Shown here: positions 16,380 to 62,292 of the stretch, piece after piece | How the letters are laid out: each line of letters starts with the position of its first letter | How positions within the stretch are numbered: the first letter of the stretch is position 1 | NCBI RefSeq assembly: GCF_003718735.1 | Contig: NZ_CP033460.1 | Location: forward strand, 1,612,001-1,676,000 | DNA from: Staphylococcus debuckii | GTDB taxonomy: Bacteria; Bacillota; Bacilli; Staphylococcales; Staphylococcaceae | Direction: 5' to 3' | DNA: 64,000 nt | Translations under genes and position numbers: made by a program | Notes under the pieces: model-generated | What the model saw: only the letters and a program-made list of their open reading frames with translations | Databases searched by the model: none | What the model was told of the DNA's origin: nothing

Positions 16380-17453
16380 TTATTTAATAGATTGCATCAT
16401 ATCAAACATAGGCAGCATAATTACAAGATATAAAGATACAATTAAAAGACCAAGAAGTAAGAAAATAACGGGTTGTATCAGTCTGATTTGTTTATTCATT
16501 TTTGTCTCGATTTGACTTAATAATATTTGTGTATAAATAGTAAGTTCTACTTCTAGTTTGCCGCTTTTCTCACCTTGCTCTATGAATTGGATTAAATCGT
16601 TTTCAAAGCAGCCTATACTCTTGAAAATTTCTGGCAAGCTCAGACCTCTTTGTATATGGTCAATTGTGTAATTGCCGATATATTTAAGAAATAAATCGAC
16701 ATTTTGCTCTGTGTATATTTTTGAAATTTGTTGTAACACAATACCGTTTCGGAAAAATAAAGAAAGTTCATTTGCAACTTGATAAGTTTTGAAGAGTTTA
16801 AAATATTTGCTTATAATGGGTATTTTTAAAATGAATATCAATCGTTGTTTGATCGTTAATTTCCTATAAACTAAATATGCAGATATGCTCATAATAGAAA
16901 TAAGGATGAGGAGGGATAAAATAATAAGCGGGAAATGTTGAATGAGGTTATTTAAAATTTTTAATGTCGGAGATAGGTGAATGTCCATCGTAGAATATAT
17001 TTGTTGGAATTCGGGGAGTATAAAATGATTAATTCCGAACAGCATCATCATAAAGACAAAGATTAATATGAGAGGATATTGGATAGTCTTAATTAATTTC
17101 TGTTTGGTCTCATTTTTTCTTTTGAGAAATTCATAAGCGTCCTTTAAATTTTCAGTAAGTTGTCCATATTTTTCAGAGAAGTAGATTTGCATAATAATAG
17201 TTCGTGGAAAATCGAGAAATTTCAGTATTGAATAGCAAGAAGCGCCATTTTCAATAAGATGGATAATGTCTTTAGCAGTCTCCTTTTGTTTATATTGAAT
17301 ATGCATATTTAAAAAGGTAAAACATTCAATTAATGTAAAACCATGTTCTAATAGGATATTCAAACGATACAACAAAGTTAACTGTTCTTTGGTGCTTAGT
17401 TTTTTTGAAGTAACAAAGGGATACTTAAGTATATCTTTCGAGAATCTCTTCAC
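16380..17453 (-). CDS. comGB: Competence pseudopilus assembly membrane protein ComGB
   Basis: ComGB is the GspF/PilC-type inner membrane platform of the competence pilus machine. The 357-residue protein shows two GspF domains: LLYRLNILLEHGFTLIEC near the N-terminus and YQVANELSLFFRNGIVLQQ in the second half. Membrane segments are at about 123-146, 173-196 and 331-352 (VIFLLLGLLIVSLYLVIM). The start is GTG at 17453, with GAGGG 8 nt upstream inside the end of comGA. It is cotranscribed with comGA. Confidence 0.92.
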   Translation of the reverse strand: MKRFSKDILKYPFVTSKKLSTKEQLTLLYRLNILLEHGFTLIECFTFLNMHIQYKQKETAKDIIHLIENGASCYSILKFLDFPRTIIMQIYFSEKYGQLTENLKDAYEFLKRKNETKQKLIKTIQYPLILIFVFMMMLFGINHFILPEFQQIYSTMDIHLSPTLKILNNLIQHFPLIILSLLILISIMSISAYLVYRKLTIKQRLIFILKIPIISKYFKLFKTYQVANELSLFFRNGIVLQQISKIYTEQNVDLFLKYIGNYTIDHIQRGLSLPEIFKSIGCFENDLIQFIEQGEKSGKLEVELTIYTQILLSQIETKMNKQIRLIQPVIFLLLGLLIVSLYLVIMLPMFDMMQSIK

Positions 17454-18399
17454 AGATAACGCCCTCTTCGCTCATTTGAGTTAATACTTTACTTAATTTC
17501 ATAAAATGTTTCGGCATTGTATAATCATGTTTGAAAAAATACTGTATATCTGACTGATACATTGTTTCATAAGCGAGTTCGCGATTGCCGTATTGATTTG
17601 TAACTAAACGCTGATTTGAGATTAACGCGATGGATTGTTGGGCTTCCTGCGGTGTGATACCCATTTCTAATAATCTTAATAATGCGCCTTCGCAATCATT
17701 AGAATGTAAGGTGGATAAAACTAAGTGGCCGCTCAAAGCAGCATGTATTACACATTTAGCTATTTGAGCATCTCTGATTTCACCAATAAGAATGATATCG
17801 GGATCGCAACGTAAGATGGCTTTGAAAGAACTCTCATAATTAATGCCTGCCTTTTCATTAACTGATATTTGAGTGATACCAGTAATTCTTTTTTCCACAG
17901 GATCTTCGACGGTTATAATATTTAAATTCAAATGTTCTTGTGCAAAAGCAACCATTTCATACATCATAGTGCTTTTACCTGAACCAGTTGGTCCCGTAAA
18001 AAGTATGAGCCCTTGTTTCTTATTCATAAGATGATAGAAATTTTTAGGTCCTGCCATTTTTGAATCTTGGGAATAATACTGTGGTGAAAGACGTATTACA
18101 CAGCTTTCCATACCTAAAGAAAGCGGTAGAGTCGATATCCGCAAATTATACAAAGTTTGATGCTTAAAAGTTGTTTGTCCACTTTGAGCTTGATGATAAT
18201 TTGAAACATCGAGTCCTGCTTGAAATTTCATAAAGGTAAGCAATTTTGAATAATTTAGAATCTCAATTTTATCGTAATTAATCAAATCATCATTAACTCT
18301 GAATTTAATCGAGACTTCCTTTTCAAGCGGTATAAAATGAATATCTGATACGTTCTTAGCAATTGCATCCTTCAAAATTTGGTCTAAAAGTTTTTTCAT
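17425..18399 (-). CDS. comGA: Competence traffic ATPase ComGA
   Basis: ComGA is the GspE/PilB-type ATPase that powers pseudopilus assembly. The 324-residue protein has Walker A GPTGSGKSTMMYEMV (about residue 135), the Asp box with TVEDPVEKRITGITQ, Walker B DPDIILIGEIRDAQI (about 203) and the His box HAALSGHLVLSTLHSND. It lacks the long N-terminal domain of PilB, as is normal for ComGA. It is the first comG gene. Its Shine-Dalgarno GGAGGTG lies inside the 3' arm of the hairpin at 18407-18436, which could hide it from ribosomes. Confidence 0.95.
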   Translation of the reverse strand: MKKLLDQILKDAIAKNVSDIHFIPLEKEVSIKFRVNDDLINYDKIEILNYSKLLTFMKFQAGLDVSNYHQAQSGQTTFKHQTLYNLRISTLPLSLGMESCVIRLSPQYYSQDSKMAGPKNFYHLMNKKQGLILFTGPTGSGKSTMMYEMVAFAQEHLNLNIITVEDPVEKRITGITQISVNEKAGINYESSFKAILRCDPDIILIGEIRDAQIAKCVIHAALSGHLVLSTLHSNDCEGALLRLLEMGITPQEAQQSIALISNQRLVTNQYGNRELAYETMYQSDIQYFFKHDYTMPKHFMKLSKVLTQMSEEGVICEEILERYT

Positions 18400-18406
18400 A
18401 AAAAAT

Positions 18407-18436
18407 CACCTCCTACAATAATAAACGTAGAAGGTG
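18407..18436 (-). promoter_or_regulatory. Hairpin enclosing the comGA Shine-Dalgarno sequence
   Basis: On the minus strand CACCTTCTAC pairs with GTAGGAGGTG (10 bp, one U-G pair) around a 10-nt loop. The 3' arm contains the whole Shine-Dalgarno GGAGGTG. ATTTTTT and then the comGA ATG follow. It could work as a translational lock or as a terminator overlapping the ribosome binding site. The comEA leader at 61535-61567 has the same design, and both loops contain or adjoin CGTTTAT. Confidence 0.7.
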
Positions 18437-18440
18437 AGGG

Positions 18441-18471
18441 AATTTCTTTTAATTTATGAAATTTCTTTTAA
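18441..18471 (-). repeat. Direct repeat upstream of comGA
   Basis: TTAAAAGAAATT occurs twice on the minus strand (18471-18460 and 18452-18441), 19 nt apart, between the end of the preceding gene and the comGA leader hairpin. Spacing near two helical turns would suit a dimeric activator or promoter-recognition element. ComK and SigH control this operon in related bacteria, but I cannot match either site with confidence. Confidence 0.45.
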
Positions 18472-19091
18472 CCATGAAGATATGGATTTAATTGTTCATC
18501 GTTGACAGTCGTTGAAGAACCGTGCCCTGGATATAACGGTAAGTCGCCTTCAATTTCAAAAATTTTATCTTGAATTGAATCGACTAAAGTCTCATAATCA
18601 CCGCGGTATAAATCAGTTCGACCTATGCCGTTGTTGAATAATGTGTCTCCTACGACTGCGAAATCGTTAAATACATAAGTTAAACTGCCAGGTGAATGTC
18701 CTGGTGTATGAAATACTTGTACCTCGAAACCGCCAATATTGTGAGCACCCTCATCTAATGATTGAGGCGTCGCTGAACTCTTAACAGGTTCTAAACCATA
18801 TTGCTGAAATTTTGATGACCCATTTTTACTGCTGTCAGTTAAGAAATCAAATTCCTCTTCATGCAAATATACAGGAACATCATATTCGTTTAATACGTCG
18901 TCTAAAGCACCAATATGGTCAAAATGGGCATGTGTTAAAATAATTGCTTTTAAGGGTTTATCGATTGATTTAAGCTTGTTTATGATTTTTTCTCCATCAC
19001 TAGATGGATCTACTAGTAATAAACTATTTTCATCCTCAATAAAGTAAGTATTGGTATCAGCAATACCAAGTGTCAAAGATGAAATATTCAT
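18468..19091 (-). CDS. MBL-fold metallo-hydrolase, glyoxalase II-like (YqgX type)
   Basis: This 207-residue cytosolic protein has the metallo-beta-lactamase fold. The metal-binding motif is THAHFDHIGALDDV near residue 53, FHTPGHSPGSLTY near 129, VVGDTLF near 146, and LYPGHGSST near the end. It is close to hydroxyacylglutathione hydrolase, but staphylococci lack glutathione and use bacillithiol, so the true thioester substrate is open. It overlaps the start of its upstream neighbour by one nucleotide and is the last gene of a block with glcK. Confidence 0.88.
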   Translation of the reverse strand: MNISSLTLGIADTNTYFIEDENSLLLVDPSSDGEKIINKLKSIDKPLKAIILTHAHFDHIGALDDVLNEYDVPVYLHEEEFDFLTDSSKNGSSKFQQYGLEPVKSSATPQSLDEGAHNIGGFEVQVFHTPGHSPGSLTYVFNDFAVVGDTLFNNGIGRTDLYRGDYETLVDSIQDKIFEIEGDLPLYPGHGSSTTVNDEQLNPYLHG

Positions 19092-19420
19092 TATTGATCA
19101 CCACTCATTTTGTCTAATTGTTTTTGAACAGATACCAATTTGTCGTTCATTTTGCGAGATTTATCACGACGGTCATCTATTCTTATATTAGTACATACCC
19201 TTTCTAATCCTTTATCAAAAGGTAATTCATGAATAGCTTGAACAACTTTAAATAAATCTTCTAAATCACCTTCAATTAACGTATTCATTGGTGTTAATTG
19301 ATAATCAATCAAGCCTTGTTCCTTAAATTCTTTTAGCTTAGTTTGAATCTCAGCGATATATTTACTGACGCTAGGTCCTTCTGTTCCAACAGGAATCACT
19401 ACTACATCTACTATTGCCAT
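19091..19420 (-). CDS. Thiamine-binding protein of the MTH1187/YkoF-like family (YqgV)
   Basis: This 109-residue protein belongs to the DUF77/MTH1187 family: AIVDVVVIPVGTEGPSVSKYIAE at the N-terminus and YQLTPMNTLIEGDLEDLFKVVQAIHE in the middle. Members form ferredoxin-like tetramers, and some bind thiamine. Its role in Firmicutes is not settled. It lies between glcK and the MBL hydrolase with overlapping stop and start codons, so it is certainly part of the same transcript. A good GAGGAGAG precedes the ATG. Confidence 0.85.
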   Translation of the reverse strand: MAIVDVVVIPVGTEGPSVSKYIAEIQTKLKEFKEQGLIDYQLTPMNTLIEGDLEDLFKVVQAIHELPFDKGLERVCTNIRIDDRRDKSRKMNDKLVSVQKQLDKMSGDQ

Positions 19421-20406
19421 TATTCAACTCTCTCCTCATCTATAACATAAGTTTTAATTAAACCAGCTGCACCTGCAATACCTGCATCGTTGCCTAGTTG
19501 AGCTTTAACTATTTCAGTTCCGTTTTGAGCTGGAGTAAATGTCAAATTACGATACTCTGTTTTAATATTCTCTATTAAAATATCGCCTGCTTCAGACATG
19601 CCGCCACCCAAAATAATATATTTCGGATTACTCATTACACTGATAATACTGCAAGCATATGCAATATAGTTGGCCACTCTTTCTGTTATGAACAAACAGA
19701 ATAAATCTCCTTTTTTAGAAGCGTCAAAAACATCTTTTGCAGTTACACGATCTTCTTTAATAAGTTCTAAAATAGAAGATTTAATTGTTAATTTAGGATG
19801 GTAAAATTTGACCAAATTAACTACACCAGTGGCTGAAGCAACTGTTTCTAAACAACCGTATTTTCCGCAATTACAGGCAAATCTTTGATCGAAATCTACT
19901 CTGAAATGACCGATTTCTGCACCAGAACCATTATGGCCATGGACAAGTTTACCATTAGAAATAATGCCGCCGCCTACTCCTGTACCTAAAGTTATAGCTA
20001 CAACATCATCCGCGTCATGACCTGCGCCTTTGTGTTTTTCACCTAAAGCTGCTGCATTAGCATCATTATCTACAAATACTGGAAAGCTGACATATTGAGA
20101 AAAAATTTCTCTAATATTCACATCGCCAGGCCAGTTTAGGTTGACTGCCCCATGAACTACTCCCGTTTCAAAATCAACAGGTCCAGGGACGCCCATGCCT
20201 AATCCTATTACATCTTCTAATTTAAGATTGAGTTCAGTCAATTTTTGTACAAAAGCACTATAGACCGATTTAAGCAAAACTACTCCTGTTGGGTCACTAA
20301 TATCTGTTTGTATTGACCACTTCGCCAGTCTATCTAGATGTTTATCAAAAATACCTAACTTACATGTTGTACCGCCAACATCAGCTGCCAATATTAAATT
20401 TTTCAT
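19420..20406 (-). CDS. glcK: Glucokinase, ROK family
   Basis: The enzyme phosphorylates intracellular glucose, released from disaccharides or imported without PTS, to glucose 6-phosphate. The 328-residue protein has the phosphate-binding motif [15 protein letters not shown] at the N-terminus, [12 protein letters not shown] near residue 112, [15 protein letters not shown] near 137 and the ROK zinc motif [11 protein letters not shown] near 178. The start codon overlaps the yqgQ stop (TAATG). Typical length for Firmicutes ROK glucokinase. Confidence 0.95.
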
Positions 20407-20612
20407 TACTTACTCATCCTTCTTTGATTGATAATTAGAATACACTTAATAAATGTGTCTTTGGAAATGAGTTGATATTCATGAAGCTCCCTAATCTCTT
20501 GTTCCATCATTTCTAGCATATCTTGCTTATCCTTAAAATAGATAATAAAACCGAATTGCTTTAATAATTGCTGCACATCATAAAAACTATTTATCTGTTG
20601 ATTCATTGTCAT
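20406..20612 (-). CDS. yqgQ: YqgQ family small protein (DUF910)
   Basis: This protein of 68 residues (from [17 protein letters not shown]) belongs to the small YqgQ family found beside glucokinase in Firmicutes. It shows [37 protein letters not shown], a three-helix arrangement, and has no known function. I start at ATG 20612, inside the 3' end of the rhomboid gene (26-nt overlap), because an earlier start would lengthen the protein beyond the family. Translational coupling on both sides is likely. Confidence 0.85.
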
Positions 20613-22047
20613 TCGCCAACTCTTCTTTAAGATATTTATATTTTTCATTATGTGGATGATTGCTATAAGCGATTTTAATATACTTCAAAGCAGATTTTTT
20701 ATCGCCTAATGAACGATTTGCAATTGCTAATTCATAATTCAAAATTCCAGATTCAGGATAATATTTAAGTCCGCGTTCCCATGTGGAAATGCCTTCTGCT
20801 TTAGAATCTTTAGTTGCTTTAATCAGGCCGCTTAAATAATATGTCTCATCATCTTCATAACCTTTATTTATAGTGTGTTCTACAAGTTGCGATGCTTTAT
20901 TATAATTCCCTTCATTCATTTCATCTCTTATTAACTTATCATAAATATTATCTTCTTTGATAGTTAAAGTTCTTATAAGTAGGAGAATTGTCAATAACAC
21001 CATTATCCCGAGTGAGATCCAAAAATATTTGCGATTCACTTTATAATAATAACCTATAAATGTAATTAAGATTCCACCGATAAAACCGCCGATATGGGCG
21101 AAGATATTCACATTAGAAATAAATAACGAAACTAGTGTCAAAAGCAAAAGCACACCAATCAGTTGAAATAATGTTTTACGATCGTATTGTTTGCCGATGA
21201 ACATCATAGCAAATAGTGAACCAATCAAACCGAAGATTGCGCCGCTCGCACCAACTGAGATAGAAGCGCTATCTATAGCAAGTGAAACAAGGTTTCCAAA
21301 TATTCCCGAAATCAAATAGATGCCCAGCATTCGCCAATGACCAACGATTGCTTCTACAAGCTTACCAAAAATAAATAATGAGAGCATATTCATCAGTATA
21401 TGTTCAAAATTAAAGTGTAGAAACATCGAAGTAATTAATCTGTACCATTCACCGTGCACCACATTAAAATGAACTAATCCGCCTACATCAATCATCCGGT
21501 TATCCGAGAATATATTGAGGATTAGAAACATATAAAGCCAAATTATCACATTTAAAGCAATTAATCCGTATGTTACAGGAGCAAATTTCATCATGTATTT
21601 TTCTAATGGATTATTACTTTGTACTCTTTTTTTATAATAAAGTGAAGTTTTATCGTTATTTTGTGAGTAAAGACGAATAAGAAGAGGATTGGGAAATATC
21701 TTGTTTAAATCTTTCATATTTCTAATCACATTGAACTTCATTTTAATCGGATGTACTTCGTTAAGATTTTCATATGTAAAAATCTTTTCAGTCAAATAGT
21801 AAAAATCAACCTCTTTGATTTTAAAACCCGTAAATTCTGATATTTCTTTTTCGTGCTCTTGGACACGACTCTTATCAAAACGAATTTCTTGAGAACTATT
21901 GACATCTGTTTTAAAAATAACAATTTTATGTTTTCTTTTATTGCTTAACCATATTTCTGAGTCTTCCTTATTTCTGTATGCAATTTCGTAGTTCAAATAT
22001 CGAATCCAATAATAAATTAATTTCCAAAATTGTTTTTCTATTCTCAT
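20587..22047 (-). CDS. Rhomboid family intramembrane serine protease with C-terminal TPR (YqgP type)
   Basis: The 486-residue protein has a soluble N-terminal domain (about 1-150), a six-helix rhomboid core (about 155-350) and a C-terminal TPR-like region (about 385-480, NYNKASQLVEHTINKGYEDDE...). The core holds HFNFEHILMNMLSLFIFG, the catalytic serine in SVGASGAIFGLIGSLFAM and the catalytic histidine in NIFAHIGGFIGG. Rhomboids cleave membrane proteins inside the bilayer; Bacillus YqgP takes part in magnesium transporter turnover. GGAGG lies 4 nt before the ATG. Confidence 0.93.
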   Translation of the reverse strand: MRIEKQFWKLIYYWIRYLNYEIAYRNKEDSEIWLSNKRKHKIVIFKTDVNSSQEIRFDKSRVQEHEKEISEFTGFKIKEVDFYYLTEKIFTYENLNEVHPIKMKFNVIRNMKDLNKIFPNPLLIRLYSQNNDKTSLYYKKRVQSNNPLEKYMMKFAPVTYGLIALNVIIWLYMFLILNIFSDNRMIDVGGLVHFNVVHGEWYRLITSMFLHFNFEHILMNMLSLFIFGKLVEAIVGHWRMLGIYLISGIFGNLVSLAIDSASISVGASGAIFGLIGSLFAMMFIGKQYDRKTLFQLIGVLLLLTLVSLFISNVNIFAHIGGFIGGILITFIGYYYKVNRKYFWISLGIMVLLTILLLIRTLTIKEDNIYDKLIRDEMNEGNYNKASQLVEHTINKGYEDDETYYLSGLIKATKDSKAEGISTWERGLKYYPESGILNYELAIANRSLGDKKSALKYIKIAYSNHPHNEKYKYLKEELANDNESTDK

Positions 22048-60852: not shown

Positions 60853-61527
60853 CTAAATTGTAAAATAATCTTTTAATTTCTCAAAAGACTTTTCTCCAAT
60901 CCCCTTCACTTCTTTAAGTTGTTCTACCTTATCAAAGCTTCCCTTGCTTTCTCTAAATTCAATAATAGCCTTAGCCTTAGAAGGTCCTACCCCTGTTACT
61001 GTAGTCAATTCAGTTTCTTTCGCTGTATTAAGATTTACCTTTTGCTGAGTTGTTGAACTATTGTCAGAGGTGCCGCTATTAACTGACACCAAATTATTAG
61101 AACCGTTTTTTCCTTTTTCTGGTATGTAAATCAGTTTTTGATCTACTAGCTTTTCTGAAAGGTTGATTTGATTGAGATCTGCTTTATCAGTTGGTACAGC
61201 TTTTAAGACAACATCTTTTATGCGTTGATTATTCGACATTTCATATACATTCGGATGCTTTACTGCACCTTTAACATCTACCATTACTTTCTTAGATTTA
61301 GTATTTTGAGTTTCTTGGGTATCCTTTTTAGCAGATTGTAATTTGTTATCGCCATTCTTTAAATTATCTTTATGGTTCCACTCAGTTGTATTCTTCTCTT
61401 GTACTTCATTTTCAGGTTGTTTGGGCTGTATAAAGAATAATAGGGCTATAATCAATATTACAATTCCTGCTGCTATGTAACGATACTGTTTGTAATGTTC
61501 TATATAGTACTTCAACTTTTCTAACAT
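60853..61527 (-). CDS. comEA: Competence DNA receptor ComEA
   Basis: ComEA binds double-stranded DNA outside the membrane. The 224-residue protein has an N-terminal anchor (about 16-33, YIAAGIVILIIALLFFI), an Asn/Lys/Gln-rich linker, a SLBB-like domain KVMVDVKGAVKHPNVYEM (about 80-97), a second Ser/Asn linker, and two helix-hairpin-helix motifs from VNLNTAKETELTTVTGVGPSKAKAI to the end (LKEVKGIGEKSFEKLKDYF). The Shine-Dalgarno AAAGGAG sits in the 3' arm of the hairpin at 61535-61567. Confidence 0.95.
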   Translation of the reverse strand: MLEKLKYYIEHYKQYRYIAAGIVILIIALLFFIQPKQPENEVQEKNTTEWNHKDNLKNGDNKLQSAKKDTQETQNTKSKKVMVDVKGAVKHPNVYEMSNNQRIKDVVLKAVPTDKADLNQINLSEKLVDQKLIYIPEKGKNGSNNLVSVNSGTSDNSSTTQQKVNLNTAKETELTTVTGVGPSKAKAIIEFRESKGSFDKVEQLKEVKGIGEKSFEKLKDYFTI

Positions 61528-61534
61528 AAAAATT

Positions 61535-61567
61535 CACTCCTTTACTATATAAACGTTTAAAGGAGTG
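61535..61567 (-). promoter_or_regulatory. Hairpin enclosing the comEA Shine-Dalgarno sequence
   Basis: On the minus strand CACTCCTTTA pairs perfectly with TAAAGGAGTG around a 13-nt loop (AACGTTTATATAG), then AATTTTT and the comEA ATG. The 3' arm contains the Shine-Dalgarno. It is 9 nt downstream of the yqeM stop, so it can also be read as a terminator for yqeM. The layout matches the comGA leader hairpin. Confidence 0.7.
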
Positions 61568-61575
61568 ATTTTACT

Positions 61576-62292
61576 TTATTTTTTTACAACAAAGAACAAT
61601 CTATTGCTCTCTGGATTATGATTATTTTGATCAAAGTCATAAAATGTACTTATATGCTTAAAGCCTGCAGCTTGTAACATTTCTAAGTATTCTTCTTCAG
61701 AATAAGTTTGTTGGTAGTGCTCTTCATCAAAACGATGATATTGTCCATCACTTTGTTTTTCAAAAAAAGTCATATAATGCCATACACTATTAGGTTCATC
61801 TCCTGCGACAGCATCCCAACCGAGAAAAACATGCTCTGTTTCATCAATATAACTTTGATTGTTAAAAAGTGTTTGCATTTTATAAGTAGAATGAACATCA
61901 AAAATAAAGATACCATCTTCTTCTAGGTGGTTATAAACTTGTTTGAAAGTATCGTTTACAGCTTCTAAATTATTTAAGTAATTCAATGAGTCACAAAAGA
62001 TAGTAATAACATCGAATGTTTGACCTAAATCAAATTGAGACATATCTCCTTCTATCCATCTGACTTCATTGGATTTTTGAGCAGCTATCGCTAACATATC
62101 AGGGCTCAAGTCCATACCCGTCACTGGCCCTAACTGTGTTAATTGATGAGTCAAACTCCCAGTACCGCAGCCAATATCTAATATCGATACTTTATCACTT
62201 ACTAGAGATTTTACGATATCTAACCAAGCATCATAGGGTTGATCTAAGGTCAGTTCGTCATAGTATTGACTGAATTCATGATATTGTTCCAT
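61576..62292 (-). CDS. SAM-dependent methyltransferase (YqeM type)
   Basis: The 238-residue class I methyltransferase has SILDIGCGTGSLTHQL (motif I, about residue 37), VTGMDLSPDMLAIA (motif II), WIEGDMSQFDLG and VITIFCDSLNYL. YqeM is conserved in Firmicutes beside rsfS and comEA; the substrate is not known to me. A weak GAGGAAG-type site precedes the ATG. It is read after rsfS with a 2-nt gap. Confidence 0.88.
   Translation of the reverse strand: MEQYHEFSQYYDELTLDQPYDAWLDIVKSLVSDKVSILDIGCGTGSLTHQLTQLGPVTGMDLSPDMLAIAAQKSNEVRWIEGDMSQFDLGQTFDVITIFCDSLNYLNNLEAVNDTFKQVYNHLEEDGIFIFDVHSTYKMQTLFNNQSYIDETEHVFLGWDAVAGDEPNSVWHYMTFFEKQSDGQYHRFDEEHYQQTYSEEEYLEMLQAAGFKHISTFYDFDQNNHNPESNRLFFVVKK

Follow-up and report, generated by a model that had tools for sequence, protein, structure and literature searches.

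In phage T4, transcripts made from early and middle promoters keep the Shine-Dalgarno sequence (SD) of I-TevI sequestered in a hairpin, while late transcription begins beyond the hairpin's 5' arm (PMC2988022). That paper describes the same design for soc, e and other late genes, in which the transcript from the gene's own promoter lacks the 5' arm and longer transcripts keep the SD sequestered. Within the competence pathway itself, the 5' UTR of Staphylococcus aureus sigH carries a repeat that forms an SD-enclosing hairpin, with half-repeat deletion as evidence (PMC3486894). Intrinsic (Rho-independent) terminators provide a further likeness, being a stem with a U-tract after a co-directional gene. 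So do the SigH/ComX promoters of Firmicutes competence genes, whose box, called the cin-box, lies near the start codon; in Streptococcus gordonii comEA, TACGAATA stands at -40.

The comEA and comGA leaders of Staphylococcus debuckii and its relatives resemble each of these systems and differ from each. Unlike the T4 genes, they belong to cellular competence operons, with an alternative sigma factor, a U-tract and a putative -10 box placed in the loop. Whereas the sigH hairpin acts on its own mRNA, a functional comEA or comGA mRNA should lack the 5' arm. In contrast to ordinary intrinsic terminators, the following gene has its SD in the 3' arm and would have its promoter in the loop; compared with other SigH/ComX promoters, the staphylococcal box reads ACGTKTA, with AAGWAA at 15 nt. 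We consider it rather probable that a single element of ~45 bp combines a terminator, a SigH promoter and an SD, insulating the competence operons from read-through. The literature that we searched, with partial coverage, appears to contain no description of a SigH promoter inside a terminator/SD hairpin.

Hairpins in the comEA and comGA leaders of S. debuckii

The window is a stretch of 64,000 nucleotides of S. debuckii (contig NZ_CP033460.1, positions 1,612,001 to 1,676,000), and all features described in it lie on the minus strand. comEA occupies 60853..61527, with its ATG at 61527-61525; the product matches TIGR01259 at 4.7e-35, below the curated cut-off, TIGR00426 over its cut-off, and HHH_3. 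Upstream, a co-directional methyltransferase gene (61576..62292; Methyltransf_25, 5.8e-18), named yqeM in the initial annotation, has its stop 48 nt before comEA. Reading toward comEA, the leader presents AAGTAA (61571..61576), a putative SigH -35 that overlaps the yqeM stop codon by its initial A, and then the 5' arm CACTCCTTTA (61558..61567), which sits in the -35/-10 spacer. CGTTTAT (61549..61555), the putative SigH -10 box, follows AAGTAA at 15 nt and lies inside the 13-nt hairpin loop. The 3' arm TAAAGGAGTG (61535..61544) contains the comEA SD, and AATTTTT (61528..61534) forms the U-tract and spacer from the stem to the start codon. The leader folds with an MFE of -14.8 and a z of about -4.8 against mononucleotide shuffles. 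A terminator scan with loops of up to 8 nt did not list this hairpin, because its loop of 13 exceeds that limit. When CGTTTATNNNGTAAAGGAG was searched with up to 3 mismatches, comEA was an exact match and a site with 1 mismatch fell inside an apparent coding gene.

comGA (17425..18399, ATG 18399-18397; NF041000 over cut-off) likewise follows a co-directional gene, an MBL-fold hydrolase (18468..19091; Lactamase_B, 7.4e-34). Its putative -35, AAGAAA (18443..18448), shows the 15-nt spacing to the box, CGTTTAT at 18421-18427. The hairpin (18437-18406) reads TCACCTTCTACG / TTTATTAT / TGTAGGAGGTGA, with 12 pairs and a loop of 8; the SD, AGGAGG, lies in the 3' arm and TTTTTT comes next. The MFE is -17.7, again with a z of about -4.8 against mononucleotide shuffles, and the stem is the longest among three terminator-like sites in 17400-20700, where shuffles average 1.6. 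The initial annotation had reported an SD-enclosing hairpin at comEA, which we confirm, and had called the comGA hairpin the same. The layout is indeed shared, including the equal spacing of 7 nt from stem to ATG, but the sequence differs and the comGA stem, CACCTTCTA/TAGGAGGTG, contains one U·G pair. It was also right that such a common layout in two unlinked operons of one pathway goes beyond chance.

We examined how unusual this layout is in the S. debuckii genome. Among 47 SD-bearing genes of the window, Watson-Crick helices overlapping the SD came to 13 at comEA, 9 at comGA and at most 7 in the rest. The wider scan comprised 60 stretches plus the window (1.264 Mb, 47% of the genome), with 1217 genes called and 875 of them bearing an SD. 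Under a looser scoring, 53 of the 875 reached a helix score of at least 8, comEA ranking first and comGA about tenth, and 30 had a run of at least 5 T before the start codon, a measure near-identical to that used for the family leaders below. Only four genes combined both traits: comEA, comGA and two AT-rich genes. The CGTTTAT heptamer by itself is not rare (13 occurrences in the window against 11.35 expected), and we rejected it as a genome-wide hallmark for lack of enrichment; the AAGWAA/box pair was not enriched in this genome either, with 6 matches against 11 for the reversed control. Rfam returned nothing over the gathering score and one sub-threshold match, ohsC, at 23.8 of 50 bits.

Conservation in Staphylococcaceae and the orientation of neighbouring genes

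We sampled 81 genomes of five genera (g1 to g5, with g1 being Staphylococcus), which yielded 80 usable comEA and 78 usable comGA leaders. The rows left out were comEA of G020 (no box found) and comGA of G036 (leader not found), G065 (no comGA match) and G068 (fragment). Leaders were placed by regular expression, 23 of them by hand, and the box position in a few g3 comGA leaders is a guess. In the g4 genome G020 (locus L104), the comEA leader has another upstream sequence without AAGTAA and box, and the SD arm remains. comEA of G036 (L013) has three in-frame stops, with the hairpin arms still present, and comGA of G036 and of G062 (L042, L063) has one TAA each within the match.

A hairpin was scored at an MFE of -10 kcal/mol or below; a z of -2.5 or below gave identical counts in the family. 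By this measure, 79 of 80 comEA leaders carry the hairpin (56/57 in g1, 1/1 in g2, 9/9 in g3, 7/7 in g4 and 6/6 in g5), including that of G071, which is S. aureus or very near because four N315 primers match its loci exactly. For comGA, all 54 g1 leaders have it, in sharp contrast to 1 of 24 in g2 to g5. Taking comEA and g1 comGA together as the hairpin groups, the sense strand thus forms a stem-loop at this threshold in 133 of 134 leaders. In all 23 genomes of g2 to g5 having both leaders, comEA is the more stable by at least 5 kcal/mol. A T-run of at least 5 precedes the start in 70/80 comEA and 52/54 g1 comGA leaders and in 0/24 comGA leaders of g2 to g5, a count that includes the first two bases of TTG starts. 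Directly after the stem, 122 of the 134 hairpin-group leaders have a U-tract of at least 5 T, and the other 12 have 3-4 T.

The arms vary between species and between comEA and comGA, and they co-vary. Exchanging the 5' arms of comEA and comGA within a species left the native arm better in 101 of 108 cases, tied in 4 and worse in 3. Swaps across species favoured the native arm 2543 to 392 in g1 comEA (215 ties) and 1737 to 672 in g1 comGA (431 ties). RNAalifold paired 450 of 510 cells in g1 comEA (51 distinct leaders) and 489 of 500 in g1 comGA (50 leaders), with C-G/T-A/T-G exchanges in the columns of both; applied to a MAFFT alignment of the comEA leaders from g2, g3 and g5 (15 distinct), it gave no common structure (-0.04). 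Over ten pairs we counted at least 21 changes between Watson-Crick pair types, nine pairs changing and one never, on a tree made from the tail of the upstream gene (coding DNA), with the proviso that MAFFT register shifts can inflate the number. Helices restricted to Watson-Crick pairs exceeded shuffles at P <=0.01 in 46/57 g1 comEA, 33/54 g1 comGA and 3/7 g4 comEA leaders. None of the 15 comEA leaders of g3 and g5 did so, because their helices rely on G·U pairs. Variation in the stem, which the initial annotation had proposed to examine by comparative genomics, includes paired (compensatory) changes that keep the hairpin.

The genes upstream divide much as the hairpin does. In g1 to g5, comEA begins soon after the end of a long co-directional frame, and so does comGA in Staphylococcus, with stop-to-start gaps of 45-62 nt in 55 of 56 scored g1 comEA leaders and of 46-71 nt in 38 of 53 g1 comGA leaders (up to 251). 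Upstream of comGA in g2 to g5, the longer frame lies on the opposite strand, i.e. divergent; one example each from g3, g4 and g5 appears to encode much the same small protein, matching DUF2626 in g4. Direction was scored on open frames in most genomes, and the genes were identified in the window; the divergent frame was read as a protein in the three examples. Within Staphylococcaceae, the hairpin accompanies a co-directional neighbour and is absent where the neighbour diverges, and the U-tract behaves likewise. Under an explicit rule, an SD-overlapping terminator-like hairpin was found in 119 of 131 co-directional leaders versus 3 of 27 others. The three exceptions are E_G080, where a co-directional frame is open for 369 nt and the antisense frame is slightly longer, and g1 comGA of G049 and G056, where the hairpin has no co-directional frame close by. 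One or few evolutionary events may underlie the contrast at comGA.

One alternative is that the hairpin is a plain intrinsic terminator of the upstream gene, with the SD placed in its arm merely to save space. The comGA site does score terminator-like, and the U-tract is tied to the hairpin within the family. Moreover, in other Firmicutes 8 of 14 co-directional comEA loci, versus 3 of 17 others, have a separate terminator-like hairpin no more than 120 nt from the gene, a count covering 31 of 44 non-staphylococcal loci, and one of these eight hairpins overlaps the SD. Judged by sequence, the comGA hairpin is the better terminator. Several comEA hairpins are predicted to be weak, with long loops or short U-tracts (the stricter terminator rule fails 12 of the 131 co-directional leaders, among them 10 of 56 for g1 comEA), yet all but one comEA leader fold stably, and we regard a plain terminator as an unlikely account of the whole.

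We also refolded 40 leaders from 20 genomes of families f2 to f4, with starts set by hand. In f2, z <=-2.5 identifies a hairpin in 3/14 comEA leaders (with co-directional or ambiguous frames) and 2/14 comGA leaders, and MFE <=-10 in 8/14 and 7/14, respectively; no f2 comGA was scored co-directional. Three f2 comGA leaders, in G093 (L183), G118 (L194) and G109 (L195), combine SD pairing with a T-run of 5-6, and no co-directional gene is seen there; 6 of 13 f2 comEA leaders have a separate terminator-like hairpin farther upstream. The single f3 genome gives -14.3 (z -3.6) for comEA, behind a co-directional frame, and -11.7 (z -2.0, T-run of 5) for comGA, behind a divergent one. In f4, all five comGA loci are co-directional with a separate terminator-like hairpin. 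The neighbour rule fails in f2 and is doubtful in f3, which lowers our confidence in the insulating element. Insulation of comEA may be general beyond the family; it is in Staphylococcaceae that the nested arrangement, with promoter and SD inside the insulator, shows most clearly. In five Lactobacillales loci (L263, L276, L293, L295 and L304), a terminator-like hairpin lies just upstream of a competence-type comEA box, with a T-run near the box.

A putative SigH promoter element and the conserved strand

In Staphylococcus, exactly 15 nt separate AAGWAA from the box that follows in 102 of 111 leaders (53/57 comEA and 49/54 comGA); in g4 the distance is 16 nt, in 7/7 comEA and 7/8 comGA leaders. 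This distance is near that of -35/-10 elements and varies by genus, not by gene. In g4 comGA, 7 of 8 leaders lack the hairpin, yet the box is conserved; the AAGWAA/box pair is therefore kept in the absence of the hairpin. Because of this fixed spacing, found also in comGA leaders without a hairpin, we read CGTTTAT as probably a SigH -10 box and probably not a motif of the RNA loop, and we infer AAGWAA-N15-CGTKTA (box ACGTKTA) as a candidate staphylococcal SigH motif.

Each of the 58 Staphylococcus genomes searched yielded a SigH-like protein. In S. aureus, deletion of sigH abolishes expression of a comG reporter (PMC10182052), and the comG and comE promoters are called SigH-dependent in PMC3486894. 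Listeria SigH promoters lie 19 nt from comGA and 22 nt from comEA, according to PMC4754846. The phage phi11 int promoter, tried as a guide to defining the box, was of no help; by eye, the AAGWAA/box pair is not visible in the SigH-recognised int region as printed in PMC2869324.

These observations bear on a second alternative, in which the hairpin belongs to the regulatory leader of a functional mRNA: transcription would begin ahead of the 5' arm, and an sRNA, an RNA-binding protein or temperature would open the SD. SD occlusion has been shown for the 13-nt repeat of S. aureus sigH (PMC3486894). The box lies in the loop at both comEA and comGA, inspection by eye of 28 parsed sigH leaders shows many that fold close to the SD or across it, and some f2 comGA leaders retain an SD hairpin without a co-directional neighbour. 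A regulatory leader is nonetheless quite unlikely in our view, given a box that keeps its spacing to AAGWAA and persists without a hairpin, and a hairpin that tracks neighbour orientation within the family. Furthermore, because the arms differ between comEA and comGA and between species, no shared target is left except the box.

The same points speak against the idea preferred in the initial annotation, a common target of an sRNA or RNA-binding protein: spacing to AAGWAA is fixed, the box occurs without the hairpin, and the arms differ by gene. In g4 comGA, the loop sequence is conserved beyond hairpin-bearing leaders, which such a target would not lead one to expect. The annotation's two fallback readings, a terminator for yqeM and a shared promoter motif, both serve better, superimposed on each other. 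The annotation had further held that its reading would be refuted if CGTTTAT were a SigH box. CGTTTAT probably is one; paired changes nonetheless preserve the hairpin, most likely because it matters to read-through transcripts.

Additionally, we asked which strand is conserved. In helices chosen by Watson-Crick pairing over 106 distinct leaders, the mismatch cells comprise 61 G·U (51 U·G and 10 G·U), 10 A·C/C·A and 17 others, an excess of G·U to which the invariant Gs of the SD, AT bias and the common C-to-T change contribute in part. Mean sense/antisense MFEs for comEA are -16.9/-7.4 in g3, -19.1/-10.2 in g4 and -18.6/-8.9 in g5. In g1 they are -20.0/-17.4 for comEA and -20.3/-15.9 for comGA; the strand argument rests on the G·U cells and on g3 to g5, because the g1 antisense folds almost as well. 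The compensatory changes together with the G·U excess point to RNA of the sense strand as the conserved object. A DNA operator for a dimeric regulator is accordingly very improbable: the repeat does overlap the promoter, operators are typically inverted repeats and both strands fold in g1, but the comEA and comGA arms of one genome mismatch in the swap test, G·U exceeds A·C by 61 to 10, and comEA of g3 to g5 folds far better as sense than as antisense.

Proposed working of the element

For the insulating element that we favour, computation shows the hairpin together with its covariation, the U-tract, the two-part box at fixed spacing and the within-family link to neighbour orientation. We propose that the -35/-10 spacer of the SigH promoter AAGWAA-N15-CGTKTA doubles as the 5' arm of the hairpin, and that the 3' arm is the SD, with the U-tract behind it. 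A polymerase reading through from the upstream gene would make the complete hairpin, and its transcript would be terminated just ahead of the comEA or comGA start codon; in RNA escaping termination, the SD would be paired. With SigH active, transcription would start a few nt past CGTTTAT, inside the loop or the 3' arm, and the resulting transcript, lacking the 5' arm, would form no terminator and leave the SD free. On this reading, the box would act in cells as the SigH -10 and set this start site, and termination and/or locking of the SD would take place there.

Nearly all of the 5' arm precedes the box, although the comGA stem reaches the box's first bases. A SigH-started transcript cannot contain the arm for this reason, and the hairpin can therefore matter only for RNA from upstream. 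Predicted folding pairs the SD in the long transcript and leaves it free in the short one. When the fold begins immediately behind the box, g1 leaders average -3.7 (comEA) and -3.1 (comGA) kcal/mol, that is, little structure. Against the model stands ComK1, which is also required for comG in S. aureus (PMC10182052) and has no place in it. The fullest version, in which one ~45-bp element unites a housekeeping terminator, a SigH promoter and the SD of the next gene and the competence operons are expressed only from SigH-initiated RNA, is for us an even call.

If true, the element would explain the silence of competence genes behind housekeeping genes until SigH appears, and would supply a sequence rule for the staphylococcal SigH promoter. 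It would also be a cellular case, with covariation across a bacterial family, of a silencing design known mainly from phage T4.

Two observations concern sigH itself. Inspected by eye, the sigH leaders of Staphylococcus (loci L367-L396; 28 parsed of 30) have differing stems near or over the SD, and the repeat published for S. aureus sigH may belong to a broader pattern. In the assembly that holds the window, nusG and sigH occur twice (contig positions 2675269-2676922 and 6048-7699), the second copy with in-frame stops; the duplicates are perhaps untrimmed, lower-quality ends of a circular contig.
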